The notes under the pieces were generated by a model. That model saw only the letters and a list, made by a program, of their open reading frames with translations, did no database searches and was not told the origin of the DNA. This document shows positions 45,164 through 54,210 of a DNA stretch of 64,000 nucleotides, in pieces (positions within the stretch are counted from its first letter, which is position 1; each line of letters opens with the position of its first letter). The DNA is from Acidovorax sp. CF316 (GTDB taxonomy: Bacteria > Pseudomonadota > Gammaproteobacteria > Burkholderiales > Burkholderiaceae_C): positions 1-64,000 of the forward strand of contig NZ_AKJX01000164.1 of assembly GCF_000276605.1 (NCBI RefSeq). Reading direction: 5' to 3'. Both the position numbers and the translations under genes were made by a program.

Positions 45164-46210
45164 CTACGCCGGGCTCACCCGGACCAGAACGCTGCCGCCT
45201 GCACCCGGCTCTGTCGCCACCCGCACCGGCAGGCAGGCATTGATCACCGCCGAATTCGTGCGCGTGTGGTCCGTGAGCTCGCTCGCCGTGTAGCGGGCCT
45301 CCTGGCCCGTGCGCCATACGGCCAGGGCCAGCGGCAGCATCCACTGGTCGGCCAGGTGGGGGCCGGTGGCTGCGGTGCTGCGCTCGTAGGCCTGTACCTC
45401 CTCGGCCAGCTTGCGCGCCACGGTCTCGGCCGACAGGCCGCGTTCGCCGAACTGGCAGAACACCTCGGTCACCTGCGCGTATTCCAGCGTGGCCATCAGC
45501 ACATTGCCCGGTCCTTCGTGCTGGCGTACGCCGGGCGCGCGCAGCTGGCCGGCCTCCAGCGTCCAGCCCAGGCGCCGGCCCAGCTCCTCCAGCTCGCGTG
45601 TGGCCACGCTGCGCGCCAGGCCGGGTGCCAGGGCCTCGGCCCAGGCGGCCACGGGCGCCCCGCGTTCCACCAGATCGAACAGAGTGAGGGCCTGCGTTGC
45701 CGGCGTGATCTGCGCGTGCAGCAGCCCGCCACCGGCCGGGTAGAAGCCGCGCCGCTCCAGCGCCAGTTCCAGTCCCACGCCCAGCCGCGCAAGCAGCGGC
45801 GCATACGCGCGCTGCAGAAAGTCGAACGGCGGCGCCATCGGGTTGTGCGTGCCGCCCGCCAGCTGGATGCGGCTGGGCCCGTCGGCCAGCATCAGCGCGG
45901 GCAGCACGGTCTGCAGCACCAGCAGGCAGCTGCCTGCGCCGGCGATGCGGAAGGTGTAGTCCCCCGCGCGCACCGCACCGGGCGTGAACTGCAGCGACTG
46001 CGAGCCCAGCTCCGCCCCTTCGGCCTGCCCGCCGCTGACCTGCACCGCTGCCTGCACGCAGGCCAGGTGCTGGCGCATCAGCCCGGGCTTGGCACGCCCG
46101 GCGCGGATGCGCTCGATGTGCAGCGGCCGGCCCGTCACCATGGACAGCGCCAGGCCGGTGCGCAGGATCTGGCCGCCGCCTTCGCCCTGGGAGCCGTCGA
46201 GCTTCAGCAT
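45164..46210 (-). CDS. rtcA: RNA 3'-terminal phosphate cyclase RtcA
   Basis: A 348-residue cyclase that converts RNA 3'-phosphate (or 2'-phosphate) ends to 2',3'-cyclic phosphates with ATP through an AMP-His intermediate. The N-terminal DGSQGEGGGQILRTGLALS, the THNPMAPPFDFL loop, GRGFYP-like RRGFYPAGGG and LADQWMLPLALAVW are diagnostic. The catalytic His is expected in ELTDHTRTNSAVI. The true start is ATG 46210, overlapping the rlaP stop by 7 nt (ATGCTGA), so the two are coupled. Last gene of the RtcR-controlled operon. Confidence 0.95.
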   Translation of the reverse strand: MLKLDGSQGEGGGQILRTGLALSMVTGRPLHIERIRAGRAKPGLMRQHLACVQAAVQVSGGQAEGAELGSQSLQFTPGAVRAGDYTFRIAGAGSCLLVLQTVLPALMLADGPSRIQLAGGTHNPMAPPFDFLQRAYAPLLARLGVGLELALERRGFYPAGGGLLHAQITPATQALTLFDLVERGAPVAAWAEALAPGLARSVATRELEELGRRLGWTLEAGQLRAPGVRQHEGPGNVLMATLEYAQVTEVFCQFGERGLSAETVARKLAEEVQAYERSTAATGPHLADQWMLPLALAVWRTGQEARYTASELTDHTRTNSAVINACLPVRVATEPGAGGSVLVRVSPA

Positions 46211-47061
46211 GGCGCCTCCTGCGATGGGGGTGCGTTGAAGCGCAGCACGGTGTCGTGCAGCAGGGTGTCGAGCGCGCCATGGCCCGGCACGGGCAGGGGC
46301 TGCACCGGCTCGGCGGCGTTGCGCGCCAGTTCGGCTTCGATGAAGGCGTGGATGCCGGGCCAGCGCGGGCTGGTCGCGGACTCTCCCGCGCGCACCTTCA
46401 CCTCCAGCAAGGCGTTGATCTCGGCGATCAGCGCGGCGTCGGCCACCGGGTCCAGCGTGTGCTGGGCCAGTTCGGCAAAGCGCATGGGCGGCACGCCAGG
46501 GCGCGCACGTATCCAGCGCGCGGCCAGCAGCGGGCGCAGCACGTAGAGGTATTTCTTGTAGCGCACCTCGTCGGCCTGCAGGTGCTCGCGGAAGTTCTTC
46601 TTGGCCATGGAGGCGTAGTGGTGCCAGCCTTTGGCGTTGGAGAACACGGTCTCGGCCAGCGCACGAAAACGCTCCATGGTGCCGGCGTCCTCGCGGTAGA
46701 CCACGGGCGAACGCAGCCATTCGAGCAGCGTGGGGTTGGACTCGCGCATCAGACCCAGCGCCTTGCGCAGGTCCCAGCCGTTGATGTCCAGGTCGCCACT
46801 GATCGGCACCTCGATCACGTCGCGCCCCGGGGCCACGGTGAGGTACCAGGGCAGCCGGTTCACGTAGATGAAGCGCACGTCGTAGTCGCTGTCGGGCGAG
46901 GCAAAGCCCCAGCCCCGGCTGCCCGACTCGCAGGCGAAGAGGATGGTGACCTGGTGCTGTGCTTCGATGGCGCAAAGGTTCTCCATGATCTGCACGCGCA
47001 TGGCGGGATCGATGGGGTGGGCCGATTGGAGGAATTCTTCCAGTTGCTGTTCTTTGTGCAT
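46204..47061 (-). CDS. RlaP-type nucleotidyltransferase (RNA-repair polymerase-beta family)
   Basis: A 285-residue predicted nucleotidyltransferase of the YcgL/RlaP group (PF10127 as I remember it). The catalytic pattern CESGSRGWGFASPDSDYDVRF (split here at residues 44-64) holds the Gly-Ser and Asp-x-Asp metal site; YLYVLRPLLAARW and the C-terminal helical part follow the family. RlaP has been linked by genome context to RtcB/RtcA RNA repair, and it could add nucleotides to damaged RNA ends, but activity is unproven. Placed between rtcB and rtcA in the operon. Confidence 0.85.
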   Translation of the reverse strand: MHKEQQLEEFLQSAHPIDPAMRVQIMENLCAIEAQHQVTILFACESGSRGWGFASPDSDYDVRFIYVNRLPWYLTVAPGRDVIEVPISGDLDINGWDLRKALGLMRESNPTLLEWLRSPVVYREDAGTMERFRALAETVFSNAKGWHHYASMAKKNFREHLQADEVRYKKYLYVLRPLLAARWIRARPGVPPMRFAELAQHTLDPVADAALIAEINALLEVKVRAGESATSPRWPGIHAFIEAELARNAAEPVQPLPVPGHGALDTLLHDTVLRFNAPPSQEAPC

Positions 47062-47131
47062 GTGCTGATGCCGGCGCTGGTCTGGCCAGCGCCGGCTCCG
47101 TTCAATGGTTGCCGTGGAGGTGCAAAGGGGC

Positions 47132-48349
47132 CTACCCCTTCACGCACACCACCTGCTTGAGCGTGTAGACCACCTCCACCAGGTCCTGCTGGGCGGCCAT
47201 CACGGCGTCGATGTCCTTGTAGGCCATCGGGATCTCGTCGATCACGTCGGCGTCCTTGCGGCATTCCACGCCCTCGGTGGCAGCGATCTGGTCGGCGATG
47301 GTGTACATCTTCTTGGCCTTGGTGCGGCTCATCTTGCGGCCCGCACCGTGGCTGCAGCTCATGAAGCTCTCGGGGTTGCCCTTGCCGCGCACGATGAAGC
47401 TCTTGGCGCCCATGCTGCCCGGGATGATGCCCAGCTCGCCGGCCTTGGCGCTCACGGCACCCTTGCGGGTGACGAGCACGTCCTCGCCGAAGTGGGTCTC
47501 GCGGCTCACGTAGTTGTGGTGGCAGTTCACCGCCTCCACATGCGCCTCGAAGGGCTTGGTGATCACCTTGCGGGCGGCCGCGATCACGCGCTGCATCATC
47601 ACCTCGCGGTTGGCGCGCGCGAACTTCTGCGCCCAGCCCACCGCACGCACGTAGTCGCCGAAGTACTTGGCGCCTTCCTCGAAGTAGGCCAGGTCCTGGT
47701 CGGGCAGGTTGCGCTGGTGCAGCTCGGCATCCTTCTTGGCCAGCTCGATGAAGTGCGTGCCGATGGCATTGCCCACGCCGCGCGAACCCGAGTGCAGCAT
47801 GAACCACACGCTGCCGTGCTCGTCCAGGCAGACCTCGATGAAGTGGTTGCCGGTGCCCAGAGTTCCCAGGTGCTTGTGGTTGTTGGTGTTGCGAAAGCGC
47901 GGGTAGTCCTCGCAGATCGCGTCGAACTCGCCCTTGAGCGCGGACCAGGCCACATCGGTCTCGTCGGGCGGCGTTTCCCACGCACCCTTGTCGCGGCCCA
48001 CGCGGCGCGGGTTGCTGCCGTGCGGCACGGCCTTCTCGATCGCCGAGCGCAGCGGGCCCAGGTTGTCGGGCAGGTCGTTGGCGTGCAGCGTGGTCTTGCA
48101 GGCCATCATGCCGCAGCCGATGTCCACGCCCACCGCGGCCGGGATGATGGCCTTGAAGGTCGGGATCACCGAGCCCACCGTGGCGCCGATGCCGTAGTGC
48201 ACGTCGGGCATGGCTGCCACGTGCTTGAACACGATGGGCAGGCGTGCCGCGTTCTCCAGTTGCTTCTGGGCCTCGTCTTCGACGGGGACGCCCTGGGTCC
48301 ACATCTTGATGGGGACGCCGTTTTCCACATTGCGTTGCAGGTAGTTCAT
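47132..48349 (-). CDS. rtcB: RNA-splicing ligase RtcB
   Basis: A 405-residue GTP/manganese-dependent ligase joining 2',3'-cyclic phosphate or 3'-phosphate ends to 5'-OH ends. Metal and guanylate sites are in VGVDIGCGMMACK (Cys), LGTGNHFIEV, MLHSGSRGVGN, VNCHHNYVSRE and SCSHGAGRKMSR (guanylated His). No residue of these motifs is missing. The length is that of the short E. coli-type RtcB. AAGGAAAGAG precedes the ATG. Central gene of the RNA-repair operon. Confidence 0.96.
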   Translation of the reverse strand: MNYLQRNVENGVPIKMWTQGVPVEDEAQKQLENAARLPIVFKHVAAMPDVHYGIGATVGSVIPTFKAIIPAAVGVDIGCGMMACKTTLHANDLPDNLGPLRSAIEKAVPHGSNPRRVGRDKGAWETPPDETDVAWSALKGEFDAICEDYPRFRNTNNHKHLGTLGTGNHFIEVCLDEHGSVWFMLHSGSRGVGNAIGTHFIELAKKDAELHQRNLPDQDLAYFEEGAKYFGDYVRAVGWAQKFARANREVMMQRVIAAARKVITKPFEAHVEAVNCHHNYVSRETHFGEDVLVTRKGAVSAKAGELGIIPGSMGAKSFIVRGKGNPESFMSCSHGAGRKMSRTKAKKMYTIADQIAATEGVECRKDADVIDEIPMAYKDIDAVMAAQQDLVEVVYTLKQVVCVKG

Positions 48350-48388
48350 TTCTCTTTCCTTGTTCTTGGTTCTGTTTCGGTGGTTCTG

Positions 48389-49201
48389 CTATTCGCTGGC
48401 CAGGTCGAACACCGCTTCGAGGATTTGCTTCTCGCCCATGCACCCGCCACAGGTGCAGTGCGCGGGCGGACCCATGGCGCTCGTGTCCATCGCCAGGATC
48501 TGCTGTGCGAATCGCTGGCGGTTGCCTTCATCGAGCAGCCAGGCCTTCATGGTTTCGCGAAACTCCGGCTGGTCTTCGGAAAAAGCGTTCTGGATCTCGT
48601 GTTGGCCCCAGAAATCCCAGTAGCTGGCATTCGCATAGTGCTGCACGGCGCTTTCCCGCTCGTCCGCCAGCCAGTGGGCCAGCAGCGGGGCGATGGACAC
48701 GCCGCCCTTGTGGAACATCAGCAGGATATCGAACGCATTCGCGCCGTCGAACGGGCTGGCCTCGCGCCCGGTAGAGCCCAGGCCCTCGCGGAAGAAGGCC
48801 AGTGCGAAGGCGTCCACGGCGGCACGTTCCTTGGGCGACAGTGCATCTGCGGGGCATTTGCCCAGCCGGTCCAGGTACAGCTCGGTCGAATGGTGCAACT
48901 CCTTGCCCTGGGCCAGCAGCTCCAGCATGCGGGGCAGGAAGTACAGCAGCTCATCCGCAGGTTGCTCGCTGCTCTTGGCCGAGCCGTTGTACTCGTAGAA
49001 ATGCCGGTTGGTGACCTGGCGCAGCGGCAGGCGGCGCATCTCGCGCTCCATGGCCTCGTCCATGCAGCAGGCGATGCACACATCCAGCATCTGCGTCGGC
49101 GCGCGGTGGTGCTGGAAGGCGGCATACGCGGCATCCACCGCCTCGCGCAGGGCGGGTGGCAGGGTCGTGGCTTCCTCTTCAGCGATTTGACGGGCTTCCA
49201 T
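48389..49201 (-). CDS. Uncharacterised protein of the RNA-repair operon (Cys-cluster C-terminus)
   Basis: I cannot assign this 270-residue protein to a family. It is acidic and helical, without signal peptide or membrane segment. There is a Cys pair region CIACCMDEAMEREMRRLP near residue 45 and a C-terminal HCTCGGCMGEKQ (about 250-261) that could bind a metal. ATG at 49201 is preferred since GGAGAG lies 7 nt upstream; an in-frame ATG at 49216 would add five residues. It stands 39 bp upstream of rtcB and 49 bp after the next unknown gene, so it is part of the operon. Confidence 0.7.
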   Translation of the reverse strand: MEARQIAEEEATTLPPALREAVDAAYAAFQHHRAPTQMLDVCIACCMDEAMEREMRRLPLRQVTNRHFYEYNGSAKSSEQPADELLYFLPRMLELLAQGKELHHSTELYLDRLGKCPADALSPKERAAVDAFALAFFREGLGSTGREASPFDGANAFDILLMFHKGGVSIAPLLAHWLADERESAVQHYANASYWDFWGQHEIQNAFSEDQPEFRETMKAWLLDEGNRQRFAQQILAMDTSAMGPPAHCTCGGCMGEKQILEAVFDLASE

Positions 49202-49250
49202 CGTCGTACTCTCCATGGCGTCTTGTGCGCCGTGCTGTCATCCATCGCAT

Positions 49251-49988
49251 CTACTGCACCATTCCCAGGGCGGCAGCGCGTGCATAGTTCTTCAGTTCCT
49301 CGTCGTGCGCCGGCACGCTGCGGATGAATAGCTCCACCCGTTCCTGCAATTCCCTCGGGCGCTGCAGATAGCGGCCCTCGTGGCCGATGCCATGCAGGGC
49401 AGAGACCTGTACCTCGCGGCAGGGCACCTCCAGCATGTGGCAGAAAACAGCCCACATCGCATCGCGCCATTCAGGAACTTCTTTGACATTCCAGAACGTC
49501 GGCCACACGTCGAACCACATGTAGCAGGCAAAGTGCAGCCGGTCGCTGCCGCTGCCGATGGCCGCTTGCACGTGGGCCATGCGCGGTGCGAAGCATTCGC
49601 TCCACAGGCGCGGGAAGGCCTGCATCATGCGCATCGCATCCGCCAGCGGAACCGATGGGTCTAGCACCATGGCCGGTATGTCGCCGGCGTTGTTGCTCAT
49701 CACATGCGTGAGGCCCATGCCCACCTGCTCGTCGCTGTAGGGCGCGAGATCGGTGCCCGCGTTGGCGAACAACACGGTCTGGATATGCGTCCACTGCAAG
49801 GGCGTGGCCTGAAAATCCGGCCCATCGTTGTCCCAGTACCACTCCTGCTCCTTCTTGCCCGGCACGGGCCGGTCGAAGAGGTAGCGGACGGCGTCGGCAT
49901 ACAGCGTGGCATCGAGTCCCAGGGACCCGGGTGTCACTGGCAACGGCGCCTGCCTTGCCAGTCGTTTTTCACGTGCAGTCTGTTTCAT
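49251..49988 (-). CDS. Uncharacterised protein of the RNA-repair operon (Trp-rich, helical)
   Basis: A 245-residue cytosolic protein, not recognised. The N-terminus is very basic (MKQTAREKRLARQ), compatible with RNA contact. The middle is rich in Trp and Phe (EQEWYWDNDGPDF, FACYMWFDVWPTFWNV) and the C-terminal part has ALHGIGHEGRYLQRPRELQE, which resembles a HEAT-like helical pair. The start at 49988 has AGAGGA upstream. It begins 29 nt past the ACCA end of a tRNA-like element, so release of that RNA would create a new 5' end just ahead of this gene. Confidence 0.7.
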   Translation of the reverse strand: MKQTAREKRLARQAPLPVTPGSLGLDATLYADAVRYLFDRPVPGKKEQEWYWDNDGPDFQATPLQWTHIQTVLFANAGTDLAPYSDEQVGMGLTHVMSNNAGDIPAMVLDPSVPLADAMRMMQAFPRLWSECFAPRMAHVQAAIGSGSDRLHFACYMWFDVWPTFWNVKEVPEWRDAMWAVFCHMLEVPCREVQVSALHGIGHEGRYLQRPRELQERVELFIRSVPAHDEELKNYARAAALGMVQ

Positions 49989-50017
49989 GGCGTTCCTCTT
50001 TTACTTCTTTCTCTGTT

Positions 50018-50090
50018 TGGTGGACGCGACGGGATTCGAACCCGCATCTTTGCAGCGACCAGGGTGCTTTACTCCGCTGGCCCAGTGAAC
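50018..50090 (-). ncRNA. tRNA-like element 3 with encoded ACCA end
   Basis: On the minus strand the 3' part is a canonical tRNA end: T-arm stem GCGGG/CCCGT with loop TTCGAAT, then CGCGTCC, discriminator A and CCA (ending at 50018). The 5' part (CACTGGGCCAGCGGAGTAAAG...) keeps pieces of a D-arm but I cannot draw a standard cloverleaf: no clean 7-bp acceptor partner or 5-bp anticodon stem is found. CAGCG/CGCTG can form a hairpin there, and GGCGCG about 20 nt further upstream (before 50100) can pair with CGCGTCC if one T bulges. It lies between the slipin and an uncharacterised gene inside the rtc operon. The 5' boundary is uncertain. Confidence 0.6.
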
Positions 50091-50271
50091 GGTTGGAAAC
50101 GCGCGCCAGTGGCAGACCCGTCATCGGAGCCAGCACCTGCATCCTCAACCTTGCCCGTTCACCGACTCTCCCGCTGCACTCGGTGTTACCCGACCTGCCG
50201 GCAATAACAACATTTTTGGCAGTGGCGCTCCCTTCTGTGCCAGCGCGCCCGTATTCCTCTTGGCTCTTTGC

Positions 50272-51411
50272 TCAGCGCAGCTTCACCAGGCCGTTGAGCA
50301 CCTGGTCCAGGCCGCCGAACACCGAGATCTTGTCGATGCGCTCGGCCACGCGCTCCAGCGTTTCCAGCTCCTTCATGCGCAGGGCGACGGGGTTGTCCTC
50401 CATCACCTTGGCGGTGTTGAGGAGCGAGCGCGTGGCGGCCGTTTCCTCGCGGCGGCGGATCACGTTGGCCTGGGCCTGCTTCTCCGCCTGCACCACCTGG
50501 GTCAGGATGGCCTTCATGTCTCCAGGCAGCACGATGTCCTTCACGCCGGCGCTCTCCAGCGCAATGCCGTAGGGCGCGAGCTTGGCGGCCATGTGGGCAC
50601 CCACCACCTCGTCGATCACCGTCTTGTTCTCCAGCAGCTCATCGAGCGTGCGGGTGCCCACGGCGGCGCGCAGCGCGAACTGCAGCTCGCGGTACAGGTG
50701 CTCCGCAGGCTTTTGCAACTGGCTCCAGGCGCGCAGCACGTCGGTGTAGCGAAAAGTGGCGCTCAGGTTGATGCGCAGGCCCACCTTGTCGCGGGTCATG
50801 ATGTCCTGGCCCGAGACTTCCACCGACTGCAGGCGCAGGTCCACCTGCTCCACCGCCACCGTGCGGCCGTACTTCCAGAAGGCGTACGCACCTGCGGCGA
50901 GCAGGCGCTCCACCTTGCCGTCCACCGTCAGCAGCGCGCAGGACGACTCGGGCACCTGCACCTGCAGCAGGCCGGCCAGGCCGGTCACCGTGCGGTGGCG
51001 CAGCTGGGGCTGCGTCAGGCGCGCCACCAGTGCAGCAGGCAGTTCGGGGCCGGCGTTCAGGTCGATCACCTGCACGGATACCTCCACCTGCCCCTTCCAG
51101 TACAGGCGGCGGGTGCCGGGGGGCAGGATCTCGACCAGCACGCCGTTCTCGCAGCGCAGGCCCACTTCGTTCTCGGCCAGTTCTACGCGCACGAACTCGG
51201 CGGCCACCACCTCGGGCTCACGGGCCATCAGGTAGTCGGCCAGGGCGTGGGTGAAGGCGGGTTGCTCCAGTGCGAAGGTTTCCACGCGCAGCTGGTCCAG
51301 GCTGGTAAACAGCCAGTGCGTGCCGCTGTGCAGGACACGGTCGAAATCGCCATTGCGCAGCAGCAGGGCGCGTTCGTTCTTCTTGACGGTGGTGCGTTGG
51401 ATCTTCAGCAT
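50272..51411 (-). CDS. Slipin / SPFH (band 7) family protein
   Basis: A 379-residue SPFH-domain protein. VEQVDLRLQSVEVSGQDIMT and DKVGLRINLSATFRYTDVLR are the prohibitin-homology core of slipins (about residues 185-225), and LESAGVKDIVLPGDMKAILT follows, with a coiled-coil AEKQAQANVIRRREETAATR. Typical slipins start with a membrane hairpin; here the first 180 residues are a soluble extension with no strong helix. Its place between tRNA-like elements in an RtcR-type operon suggests a stress role linked with RNA repair. First protein gene of the operon, preceded by a leader of about 560 nt. Confidence 0.85.
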   Translation of the reverse strand: MLKIQRTTVKKNERALLLRNGDFDRVLHSGTHWLFTSLDQLRVETFALEQPAFTHALADYLMAREPEVVAAEFVRVELAENEVGLRCENGVLVEILPPGTRRLYWKGQVEVSVQVIDLNAGPELPAALVARLTQPQLRHRTVTGLAGLLQVQVPESSCALLTVDGKVERLLAAGAYAFWKYGRTVAVEQVDLRLQSVEVSGQDIMTRDKVGLRINLSATFRYTDVLRAWSQLQKPAEHLYRELQFALRAAVGTRTLDELLENKTVIDEVVGAHMAAKLAPYGIALESAGVKDIVLPGDMKAILTQVVQAEKQAQANVIRRREETAATRSLLNTAKVMEDNPVALRMKELETLERVAERIDKISVFGGLDQVLNGLVKLR

Positions 51412-51677
51412 GTGTCTACCCTCGTTCTTTCTTTTTTCAATGTCGTTGGTCGCCGCATCAAACTTCTTGCAAAGGGGCCGTTACAGCGGGGCAGTGGTCC
51501 CAGGGGGCGCGGCTCGGGCCCTGCAGTGCGCCGTGGCGGCGGCCTCGAGGGGCCTTCGCTTGGGCTGGCTGCGGGCGCGGGCCGTGCCGGGTGCTGGCAC
51601 AAACCGCCACCGCTGACGGGGCAATGGCTTCCAGGCTGCGGCGCAACCCTTGGTCCTTCACCCCGCGTCCGGCGGGT

Positions 51678-51716
51678 GGTCTTTCGACCGTCTTCGATAG
51701 CCGGCCCGAAGGCCGG
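51678..51716 (-). ncRNA. Stable hairpins directly after tRNA-like element 2
   Basis: On the minus strand CCGGCC-TTCG-GGCCGG (51716-51701) and GGTC-GAAA-GACC (51689-51678) form two hairpins with very stable tetraloops, starting 5 nt past the CCA of element 2. No T-run follows, so they are unlikely to terminate; they may protect the processed 3' side or insulate the elements from the slipin mRNA. The remaining leader down to 51412 shows no gene. Confidence 0.45.
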
Positions 51717-51721
51717 AAGAA

Positions 51722-51787
51722 TGGGCAGGAGTCGAACCTGCGACAGTCCCTTTTCAGGGGTGCTCTACCGGACTGAGCTACCAGTGG
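51722..51787 (-). ncRNA. tRNA-like element 2 (Phe-tRNA-like with reduced acceptor)
   Basis: On the minus strand the order is CCACTGG, TA, a canonical D arm (GCTC-AGTCCGGTA-GAGC), a short hairpin that reads either CCCT-GAAA-AGGG or CCC-CTGAAAA-GGG (the latter loop equals a Phe GAA anticodon loop), a spacer, and a canonical T arm (GCAGG-TTCGACT-CCTGC) followed by CCA. Only three acceptor pairs (TGG/CCA) are possible, so it cannot be a normal charged tRNA. It shares its first bases with the ACCA of element 1. Confidence 0.7.
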
Positions 51788-51844
51788 TGCAGGCCGGGAG
51801 TCGAACCCGACAGCCCCTTTCGGGGCTGGCTTCCACAGCCCTGC
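51785..51844 (-). ncRNA. tRNA-like element 1 (60-nt compact cloverleaf, ACCA end)
   Basis: On the minus strand every base is used: acceptor GCAGG (51844-51840) with CCTGC (51793-51789); mini D-arm GCT-GTGGA-AGC; a 7-bp arm CAGCCCC/GGGGCTG closed by GAAA (51828-51811) in place of the anticodon arm; T arm TCGGG-TTCGACT-CCCGG (51810-51794); then A and CCA (51788-51785). The acceptor is 5 bp rather than 7 and there is no anticodon. The architecture recalls the tRNA-like domain of bacterial Y RNAs (YrlA) but no Ro protein gene is present. Confidence 0.75.
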
Positions 51845-51984
51845 CGTCACCCGGCGCTCGCAGCGTGCGGCATGCGGGGAATCCAAAAAGCCTGAAGCCC
51901 CGGACTCCCGGCACCGGCAGGGCGGGCCTGTGCCCCAACCCTGGCCTGTGAGCGTTCACTGTTTGCGCCGAGTGCTTTTCTATT

Positions 51985-52000
51985 CGCGAATTGCGTGCCA
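51985..52000 (-). promoter_or_regulatory. Sigma-54 promoter of the RNA-repair operon
   Basis: Minus-strand TGGCACGCAATTCGCG has a perfect -24 element TGGCAC and GG-N10-GC spacing; the -12 box is TCGC instead of TTGC. It faces the tRNA-like/slipin/rtcBA operon and would start transcription near 51974. RtcR is the expected activator because known RtcR proteins drive rtcBA from sigma-54 promoters. Confidence 0.75.
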
Positions 52001-52131: not shown

Positions 52132-53763
52132 ATGCGCAAGAATAGGGTGGTCGTCGGTTTCATCGGTACCCAGCTCGATTCCGGCAAGGGCGCAGGCCGC
52201 TGGGAGAAGTGGCGGCCCACCGTGTCGCTGGTGCAGCACGAGGACATGGTGGTGCACCGCATGGAGCTGCTGTACACGCCGGCCCACCAGGAGTTGGCGC
52301 ACCAGGTGCGCAACGACATCGCCATCGCCTCGCCCGAGACCACGGTGCAGTTGGTGCCCATGCAGATCGCTGACCCTTGGGACTTCGGCGAGGTCTACGC
52401 CAAACTGTTTGACTGGACCCAGGCCTACCGCTTCGACACCGAACGCGAGGAGTACTGGACCCACATCACCACCGGCACGCACGTGGCGCAGATCTGCCTG
52501 TTCCTGCTGGTGGAATCGCGGCGCATTCCGGGCGTGCTGGCGCAGACCTCGCCGCCCAAGCGCCAGCAGATGGGTGATCCGGGCAGCTATGCGCTGATCG
52601 ACCTGGACCTGTCGCGCTACGACGTGATCGCCCAGCGCTTCGGTGCCGAGCAGCGCGATGCGGTCGACTTCCTCAAGAGCGGTATCGCCACGCGCAATGC
52701 GCGCTTCAACGCGCTGATCGACGAGGTGGAACGTGTGGCGGTGCGCTCGCGCGCACCCATCCTGTTCACAGGGCCCACGGGGGCGGGCAAGTCGCACCTG
52801 GCGCGGCGCATGTACGAGCTCAAGAAGGCCCGCCACCAGGTGGAGGGCGAATTCGTCGAAGTGAACTGCGCCACCCTGCATGGCGACGGGGCCGCCTCCA
52901 CCCTGTTTGGGCACAAGAAAGGCGCCTTCACGGGCGCCGCGGCCGACCGCGCGGGCCTGCTGCGCACGGCGCACAAGGGTGTGCTGTTCCTTGACGAGAT
53001 CGGCGAGTTGGGCCTGGACGAGCAGGCCATGCTGCTCAAGGCGGTGGAGGAAAAGCGCTTTTACCCCATGGGCAGCGACCGCGAGGTGGCCAGCGATTTC
53101 GAGTTGATCGCCGGCACCAACCGCGACCTGCGCACCGAGGTGGCGGCCGGGCGCTTCCGCGAAGATCTGTATGCGCGCATCAACCTCTGGAGCTACCAGC
53201 TGCCAGGCCTGGCCCAGCGCCCCGAGGACATCGAGCCCAACCTGGATCACCTGCTGGCCCGCACCGGCACGGAACTGGGCCGCACGGTGCGCCTCTCGGC
53301 CGAGGCGCGCACGGCCTACCTGCGCTATGCCCAGTCGCCCGATGCGCTGTGGAGCGGCAACTTCCGCGACCTATCGGCCAGCGCCACGCGCCTGGCCACC
53401 CTGGCCGACAGCGGCCGCATCGGCCTGCCCCTGGTGGAGGCCGAGATTGCGCGCCTGCAGTGGCTGTGGCAGCCGGCCAAGGATGCACGCGATGGCCTTT
53501 TGGGTGCCCGGGCTGCCGATGCCATCGATCTGCGCGTCCTGTTGGGCGAAGACGCCTTGGACGCGATGGACCTGTTCGACCAGTTGCAACTGGCCGCCGT
53601 GCTGCGCGTGTGCCGCCAGGCTCGCACCCTGTCCGAGGCGGGGCGCCAGCTGTTCCAGGCCTCGCGCGCGCAGCGCGCGGTGGTCAACGATGCCGACCGC
53701 CTGCGCAAATACCTGGCGCGCTTTGACCTTACATGGGAACGCGCCAGCTCCGGTGAACGATAA
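52132..53763 (+). CDS. rtcR: RNA-repair transcriptional activator RtcR (CARF plus sigma-54 AAA+)
   Basis: A 543-residue enhancer-binding protein. Residues 1-180 are the CARF-like sensor (VVVGFIGTQLDSG; WTHITTGTHVAQICLFLLVE), known in other RtcR proteins to bind RNA ends with cyclic phosphate and to hold the ATPase inactive. The AAA+ domain has Walker A GPTGAGKSHLA, the sigma-54 contact loop KGAFTGA, Walker B GVLFLDEIGEL and the arginine-finger region FREDLYARINLW. A C-terminal helix-turn-helix (ARTLSEAGRQLFQASRAQRA) binds DNA. Divergent from the operon it should activate. The stop TAA overlaps the -10 box of rnpB. Confidence 0.96.
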   Translation: MRKNRVVVGFIGTQLDSGKGAGRWEKWRPTVSLVQHEDMVVHRMELLYTPAHQELAHQVRNDIAIASPETTVQLVPMQIADPWDFGEVYAKLFDWTQAYRFDTEREEYWTHITTGTHVAQICLFLLVESRRIPGVLAQTSPPKRQQMGDPGSYALIDLDLSRYDVIAQRFGAEQRDAVDFLKSGIATRNARFNALIDEVERVAVRSRAPILFTGPTGAGKSHLARRMYELKKARHQVEGEFVEVNCATLHGDGAASTLFGHKKGAFTGAAADRAGLLRTAHKGVLFLDEIGELGLDEQAMLLKAVEEKRFYPMGSDREVASDFELIAGTNRDLRTEVAAGRFREDLYARINLWSYQLPGLAQRPEDIEPNLDHLLARTGTELGRTVRLSAEARTAYLRYAQSPDALWSGNFRDLSASATRLATLADSGRIGLPLVEAEIARLQWLWQPAKDARDGLLGARAADAIDLRVLLGEDALDAMDLFDQLQLAAVLRVCRQARTLSEAGRQLFQASRAQRAVVNDADRLRKYLARFDLTWERASSGER

Positions 53764-53771: not shown

Positions 53772-54210
53772 GTGAAGCGCGCCAGACCGCCGCTGGTGCA
53801 ATCTGGGAAACCAGGCACTGGAGGAACGTCCGGACTGCACAGGACAGCGTAGCAGCTAACGGCTGCCCACCGTGAGGTGAGGATCAGAGCAACAGAGACG
53901 AGTTCGGACACGGGACCACCAGGGGTGTTCTGTGGGACGCCAGCGCAAGCTGGCTGCGGATGGCGCAAGCCAGACGGTTCCCGGCGCAAGCCGGGAAATC
54001 CCACAGCCACCTCGGGCGCGTTCCGCGCCCGAGGTGAAACGGGCAATCTCTACGCGCAGCAATACCAAGTAGGCCAACGTTGATGTGGTTCCGCAGAGTT
54101 GGCGGGTAGGTAGCATCGAGCCGGTGTGGCGACACCCGGCCCAGAGTAATGGCGGTCACGCCGCGGGCAACCGCGGTGCACAGAATCCGGCTTATCGGCG
54201 CGCTTCACAC
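53772..54210 (+). ncRNA. rnpB: RNase P RNA (class A)
   Basis: The catalytic RNA that removes tRNA 5' leaders. A perfect 12-bp P1 helix forms between GTGAAGCGCGCC (53772-53783) and GGCGCGCTTCAC (54197-54208). The P4 strand GAGGAACGTCCGGAC and the 3' conserved block ACAGAATCCGGCTTAT are present, as is AGAGTAATGGC. About 437 nt is a normal bacterial size. It follows rtcR by 8 bp. The hairpin CGCCGGT/ACCGGCG at 54224-54240 is the only terminator candidate and lacks a T-run. Confidence 0.95.

Follow-up and report, generated by a model that had tools for sequence, protein, structure and literature searches.

RNA-repair modules built around SPFH/Band-7 proteins were reportedly described by Burroughs and Aravind in 2016 (NAR), the abstract naming a 'novel tRNA-like molecule'. 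The locus analysed here lies in the first 64,000 nucleotides of contig NZ_AKJX01000164.1 of Acidovorax sp. CF316 (hereafter the window). It has slipin, RNA-repair genes and tRNA-like RNA in common with those modules, and their RNA most likely corresponds to E1 and/or E2, two elements found upstream of slipin, which are probably already known in outline. The Salmonella rsr-yrlBA-rtcBA operon (Hughes et al., PMC7790460) likewise combines RtcR, sigma-54, RtcB, RtcA and an operon-encoded tRNA mimic and is regulated by damaged tRNAs. It differs from the Acidovorax locus, where slipin and E1/E2 replace Ro and YrlA, and RlaP, two proteins of no assigned family and a third RNA, E3, are added. For E. 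coli, PMC9650030 gives transfer-messenger RNA (tmRNA) as the most frequent ligation target of RtcB, and activation of RtcR as requiring RtcA/RtcB together with a repair-dependent signal. An SPFH gene has been placed within the P. aeruginosa rtc locus (PMC13086221). TrcR of Anabaena acts as a repressor of an array of 26 tRNAs, of rtcB (all3526) and, according to Table 1 of the paper, of the slipin gene alr0740 (PMC10272220). That regulon also unites a stress tRNA array with rtcB and slipin, but its genes are scattered and under a repressor, whereas they are contiguous in the array-type relatives described below. A literature search, covering mostly titles and the starts of abstracts, found no paper that joins slipin, rtcB and a tRNA-like RNA.

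The locus is tentatively interpreted, with a probability of about 0.4, as an RtcR/sigma-54 RNA-damage operon of two RNA-protein parts, one formed by slipin and an E1-E2 leader RNA and the other by E3 and the repair ligase. The favoured role of the tRNA mimics, as far as comparative data can indicate, is that of scaffold or docking RNAs, E3 being a putative partner of the ligase. This role is preferred because the RNAs of the window keep the tRNA elbow, E1 and E3 also the acceptor, but have no anticodon loop. On the minus strand the order is sigma-54 site, leader, E1, E2, slipin, E3, the two proteins without family, RtcB, RlaP and RtcA, with rtcR divergent from them (Table 1). RtcR above its curated cut-off beside rtcB/rtcA identifies an RtcR-controlled RNA-repair operon. 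The initial annotation had proposed this gene content and order, which the profile matches confirm, and had placed three tRNA mimics inside the operon, naming beforehand a lack of their conservation beside slipin/rtcB in relatives as a refuting result; all three recur there.

A search for slipin across 299 genomes from the same family gave matches at E<=1e-20 in 26, the present genome among them, and the 26 loci were mapped. RtcR adjoins slipin in 14 of these. All 14 RtcR-adjacent loci have a sigma-54 type site no more than 1 kb 5' of slipin, against one of the 12 RtcR-less loci, so that the proposed control by RtcR and sigma-54 is borne out by position.

E3 is a 233-nt RNA whose ends pair, GGGCGCG (starting at 50250) with CGCGUCC, followed by ACCA. 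The structure comprises an alanine-tRNA-like acceptor with G3-U70, A73 and CCA, a D-arm and a T-arm, and a long branched domain replaces the anticodon arm. Three tRNA-like RNAs of one kind had been annotated. The third is a conserved tRNA-like element as claimed, but it is the 3' end of the longer E3, which goes with the repair genes, while the other two sit in the leader and are tied to slipin. The evidence for the RNA structures is comparative, since the single-sequence folding energies of the elements showed nothing unusual. By this comparison, covariation is strong for E2 and E3 and moderate for E1. Among 18 E3 sequences 98.7% of cells were paired and 20 of 67 pairs showed changes in both partners (11.0 +/- 1.6 after shuffling, 1-4 in slid alignments), counts that overstate the number of events as several alignment rows are near copies. 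One of five measures, further pair types, did not exceed the shuffles, of which 128 of 500 were as high. G3-U70, the main alanine identity element of tRNA, and A73 are found in all 23 E3 loci and CCA in 22. In 20 aligned rows, acceptor pairs 4, 5 and 6 have changed on both sides, and the T-stem is paired in 100% of cells and the D-stem in 98.7%. Judged by the G3-U70 pair in its acceptor, E3 would be a substrate of alanyl-tRNA synthetase (AlaRS). The arm at nt 103-158 brought in two distant homologues; the acceptors of distant E3s are GGGCAUG/CAUGUCC, GGGGACG/CGUCUCC and GGGCAGG/CAUGUCC (one mismatch), with G3-U70 and A73 in all. E3 reaches no cut-off in Rfam 15, and none of the papers that the literature search found describes it.

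A 69-nt GC-rich insertion that folds into hairpins was observed in the E3 T-loop of two Acidovorax strains (L073:3391-3691 and L077:1069-1369), and is single copy in the one genome of four bearing it. The L073 and L077 rows were omitted from alignments A1, A2 and A7 and retained as they are in the 23-locus count (L031 is the L077 genome).

Of 399 family genomes, 12 have E3 at nearly its full length, and three more matches are weak or partial. An exact pattern of 40 bases was found in 11 named contigs (Acidovorax 5, Polaromonas 2, and Allofranklinella, Vandammella, Pelomonas and Conchiformibius), and E3 also occurs in one plasmid; no E3 was found in phage records, nor by the exact pattern in viral contigs. 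The identity is still 74% in a Conchiformibius metagenome-assembled genome (MAG). All 23 E3 loci are near RNA-repair, slipin or Ro genes: RtcB lies downstream in 18, and upstream are slipin (12), Ro (8) or neither (3). The five loci without RtcB comprise two with short 3' flanks (L079, L074), one with no RtcB within 4.7 kb (L048), one in a tRNA array (L131) and one with another ligase. In the latter, the Conchiformibius MAG (L069:3121-5723), E3 and unknown protein 2 are followed by an open reading frame (ORF) that matches a T4-type RNA ligase and AAA_33. Distant homologues from other families lie directly before RtcB (L128, L137) or in the array of L131, 0.9 kb after slipin. Among the slipin loci of the family sample, E3 is present in 4 of the 14 RtcR-adjacent ones, with a remnant in a fifth, and in 0 of the 12 others. 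Matches to the E3 arm in L066, L067 and L068 were rejected by eye as apparent protein-coding DNA. Matches to the E3 model below about 34 bits, some of which were inspected, resemble tRNAs or tmRNAs among the matches listed. A match of 52 bits at a contig end (L138) is a probable but cut-off E3 and was excluded from the counts.

The leader between the sigma-54 site and slipin is about 560 nt, with the conserved elements in the first 315 nt or so. E2 in the window has a D-arm, a GAAA-capped anticodon stem, a T-arm and, by eye, a vestigial acceptor of 3 bp without CCA. What resembles a Phe-like GAA 'anticodon' in E2 is a GAAA tetraloop. Across loci the same three arms are found, together with an acceptor that by eye has 3-5 bp and lacks CCA. 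Over 24 loci both partners have changed in 11 of the 18 pairs, all five pairs of the anticodon stem among them; shuffling gave 6.6 +/- 1.1, and none of 500 shuffles was as high. The E2 loop of 12 RtcR-adjacent loci is GNRA in six, another 4- or 5-nt loop in three and 7 nt in three, and that of 12 other loci is 7 nt in nine, with one GNRA, one other 4-nt and one 6-nt loop. ARAGORN reads the E2 anticodons of loci without adjacent RtcR as different amino acids. E2 was not detected in L047 and L050 by the motifs used.

E1 in the window consists of a 5-bp acceptor (GCAGG/CCUGC) with A and CCA, a short D-like arm, a GAAA-capped hairpin and a T-arm. A canonical tRNA has a 7-bp acceptor with CCA and a 7-nt anticodon loop; neither E1 nor E2, with their short acceptors and tetraloops, is of this form. 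Relatives have a 5-7 bp acceptor, a reduced D region, a tetraloop-capped hairpin and a T-arm, with N-CCA in many loci. The structural support for E1 is judged moderate from these comparisons. A first acceptor test, whose range excluded shorter E1s and which accepted any hairpin, did not reach significance, with 2 of 22 loci below 0.05. Range and criterion were altered after this negative outcome; the strict form, which came second and demanded a full 6-bp acceptor and a tetraloop hairpin, was passed by 9 of 22 loci, where 300 shuffles averaged 2.7 and went no higher than 8. The E1 of the window itself, with 5 bp, fails it, and the automatic acceptor fit is plainly wrong in some loci. E1 was not detected in L043 and L048 by the motifs used.

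The slot of slipin and E1/E2 is occupied differently in Acidovorax sp. A1169 (L073). Compared with the window, the rtcR side of this locus is 92% identical and the part from E3 into rlaP 88-99%, and between them are Ro and three YrlA matches (70.1, 59.1 and 38.4 bits; cut-off 69) where the window has slipin and E1/E2. The two pairs, slipin with E1/E2 and Ro with YrlA, therefore look like interchangeable cassettes at the sequence level. The protein used as Ro query, from L076, has Pfam vWA_Ro60 and TROVE. The initial annotation had contrasted the locus with the Salmonella type for its want of a Ro gene. This stands, as Pfam gave no Ro/TROVE protein among the operon proteins and tblastn with Ro gave no match near the window's E3, but the gap is narrower than supposed because both pairs share one slot in similar operons. 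The Y RNA YrlA (RF02553) is a tRNA mimic in the same operon position, and the E1/E2 junction is weakly similar to it. Five of eight RtcR-type loci give a weak match to the YrlA model over this junction, as does L040, in which E1/E2 alone match and none of the other, ordinary tandem tRNA pairs does; the match in the window (35.7 bits, cut-off 69) is better than the weak ones of the relatives and is below the gathering score. E1/E2 differ from YrlA in staying below the Rfam cut-off and having no linked Ro, and E3 is separate from it. E3 as YrlA was ruled out, since both are found in one operon.

The 12 loci without adjacent RtcR (L033-L036, L038-L041, L043-L045 and L052) all have ordinary same-strand tRNA genes, 2-17 each, 420-8000 nt upstream of slipin. 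E2 is retained in all 12 and an E1-like T-arm in 11. Only two of the 12 genomes have an RtcR over the cut-off elsewhere, and none was found in the other ten. Among the 14 RtcR-adjacent loci only L037 has such upstream tRNA genes, 18 for 18 amino acids, beyond rtcR; slipin, Ro and YrlA are also there. In a tree of 43 RtcBs, the ten array-type RtcBs included and L037 form one supported clade. At the class level 21 of 369 genomes, counting the present one, contain slipin. Most slipin genes of the 20 new loci and of five plasmid records have a T-arm motif or an ARAGORN tRNA no more than 800 nt upstream; in L090 there is one only about 1.4 kb away, and for L106 and L111 the start that had been assigned fell inside slipin.

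Several further genes were observed at these loci. A small HNH endonuclease ORF (Pfam HNH_5) is found beside the tRNA array or between it and E1/E2 in L040:9909-10481 and L131:1776-2345, and ORFs resembling it by eye are present in L034, L038 and L045. An ORF for a ClpP-like SDH-type serine protease is found between slipin and RtcB in L036:12189-13196 (PF01972, 42.5 bits), with a similar one, by eye, in L043. The E. coli plasmid record L108 and the Citrobacter plasmid L109 have slipin-RlaP by lysC-pgi, with an upstream sigma-54 site and one T-arm motif, and the E. coli slipin-RlaP stretch matches 1625 of 5426 complete E. coli genomes.

In the favoured interpretation of two RNA-protein parts, the leader would be processed out of the transcript and, with slipin, would form a membrane-linked ribonucleoprotein cassette doing the job of Ro and Y RNA in sister operons. 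E3 is probably alanylated by AlaRS and would be the partner on the ligase side. The tRNA-like ends may dock RtcB, RtcA, RlaP, EF-Tu or processing nucleases onto a slipin or Ro scaffold, and the missing anticodon loop may protect the RNAs from cutting or decoding. That E3 represents a new class of alanylated tRNA-like RNA, carried by EF-Tu once charged by AlaRS and serving the RNA-repair machinery as a dedicated ligase substrate or ribosome probe that reports tRNA damage in both the slipin and the Ro pathways, is rather unlikely. Several observations weigh against the interpretation as a whole. Nine of the 14 RtcR-adjacent slipin loci have no E3 and one has a remnant, the E3 of L131 sits in a tRNA array and that of L069 beside another ligase. 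The RtcB tree, from which the short L078 and L096 were dropped and the E3 loci L063, L074, L075 and L079 left out, requires about 8-10 gains and losses of E3, which clusters weakly on it (37 of 500 shuffles as low). On this tree E3 is not a strict partner of RtcB, and strict co-evolution of the two is not borne out; E3 is modular and not bound to one RtcB lineage. The exchange of Ro and slipin was examined in detail in one locus pair, the weak YrlA junction matches have E values of 0.0025 to 0.21, and a 7-nt E2 loop is present in three of 12 RtcR-adjacent and nine of 12 other loci.

The mimics may instead be decoys that titrate tRNA-cleaving nucleases by means of their elbow and T-arm (in E1 and E3 also acceptor and CCA), with no anticodon loop to be cut. 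None of the window's elements has an anticodon loop of 7 nt, an observation that speaks against their being ordinary substrates of anticodon nucleases, and the E2 loop is shortened in nine of 12 RtcR-adjacent loci, six of them GNRA; competition of YrlA with an anticodon nuclease is also proposed as one possibility by Hughes et al., with YrlA fragments undetected (PMC7790460). The decoy explanation is nevertheless doubtful, given the 7-nt loops just mentioned and the ultra-conserved arm of E3, superfluous in a simple decoy. It is distinctly less likely that E3 is a divergent second tmRNA rescuing ribosomes stalled by tRNA damage. The ends of tmRNA (RF00023) form the same kind of acceptor with G3-U70, A73 and CCA and there is a T-arm, tmRNA matches at E3 are sub-threshold (15-22 bits; in the window 16.5 bits against 47, missing the gathering score), and RtcB of E. 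coli ligates tmRNA (PMC9650030). On the other hand E3 has a D-stem, where tmRNA has a stemless D-loop, and is tied to RNA-repair genes, and the genome has its own ssrA, a standard tmRNA of 184.9 bits, by which E3 is ruled out as the tmRNA of the cell. There is no long shared tag frame either: the aligned stops are at columns 68 and 122 (20 of 20) and 147 (19 of 20), the shortest open stretches before them being 4, 3 and 7 codons, although the invariant arm could still hold a tag of at most 7 codons.

More improbable again is a sensor feed, in which the CARF domain of RtcR would read cut or repaired ends of E1-E3 and control would amplify itself. The position of all three behind one sigma-54 site, which would put them on the same transcript, and the regulation of the Salmonella operon by damaged tRNAs (Hughes et al., PMC7790460) agree with such a circuit, but both the leader and E3 follow the promoter and should be made chiefly once induction has taken place, and E2 and the E1-like T-arm are kept at the RtcR-less loci, ten of 12 of whose genomes have no RtcR over the cut-off. 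The least probable by far is that E1/E2 are decayed remnants of tRNA arrays and E3 a passenger element. The ordinary tRNA genes upstream of slipin in RtcR-less relatives, and the coming and going of E3 on the RtcB tree, would be expected of remnants and passengers; the compensatory changes in E2 and E3 already disfavour this origin, as do the conservation of E3 in Conchiformibius and the neighbourhood of all 23 E3 loci.

Table 1. Features of the RNA-repair operon and the divergent rtcR gene in the window.
Feature	Position	Strand	Evidence
rtcR, CARF-domain sigma-54 activator	52132..53763	+	NF038308 818 bits (cut-off 650); PF06956
Sigma-54 type promoter TGGCACGCAATTCGCG	51985..52000	-	such a site in 14/14 RtcR-adjacent slipin loci, family sample
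5' leader domain of slipin RNA (start estimated from promoter)	51862..51975	-	conserved blocks, alignment A6, 8 loci
E1 mini-tRNA	51785..51845	-	T-arm/acceptor motifs; tRNA-Sec 22.4 bits, sub-threshold
E2 tRNA body	51721..51784	-	RF00005 35.2 bits; covariation; loop reading
Two leader hairpins 3' of E2, one UUCG-capped, the other GGUCGAAAGACC and then CCCGCCGGACGCGGG	51661..51716	-	GGUCGAAAGACC in 7 of 8 rows, alignment A6
Slipin (SPFH/Band 7), 379 aa	50272..51411	-	PF01145 106 bits
E3, 233-nt alanine-tRNA-like RNA	50018..50250	-	comparative structure
Ultra-conserved arm of E3 (nt 103-158)	50093..50148	-	nearly invariant, 20 sequences
Unknown protein 1, 245 aa	49251..49988	-	all-helical model, pLDDT 83
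Unknown protein 2, 275 aa	48389..49216	-	nearly all-helical model, pLDDT 89
rtcB, RNA ligase	47132..48349	-	PF01139 427 bits
rlaP, nucleotidyltransferase	46204..47061	-	PF10127 307 bits
rtcA, RNA 3'-phosphate cyclase	45164..46210	-	TIGR03399 335 bits (cut-off 250)

With Rfam, E2 was the tRNA found in the window, above a cut-off of 29 bits; the matches to E1, E3 and the E1/E2 junction were sub-threshold. ARAGORN gave no tRNAs across the 64 kb. The leader hairpin sequence GGUCGAAAGACC is found in seven of the eight rows of alignment A6. The intergenic stretch from slipin to unknown protein 1 that holds E3 is about 280 nt. Unknown proteins 1 and 2 belong to no Pfam, NCBIfam or PADLOC family and their predicted folds had no PDB match at E<=0.001; five proteins were tested with PADLOC and none matched. 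An RNase P RNA gene is situated just past rtcR (53774-54210, plus strand); L027, L031, L032 and L073 have one too.

E3 gives a sharp handle on why RNA-repair operons contain tRNA mimics, as its alanine identity marks persist beside RNA-ligase genes while the surrounding stem covaries. The array-type relatives tie RNA repair to replacement of the tRNA complement, and the E. coli slipin-RlaP locus could make part of the scheme testable in a laboratory organism. The exchange of slipin and Ro suggests that slipin is the functional counterpart of Ro, which would give one SPFH protein family a role.

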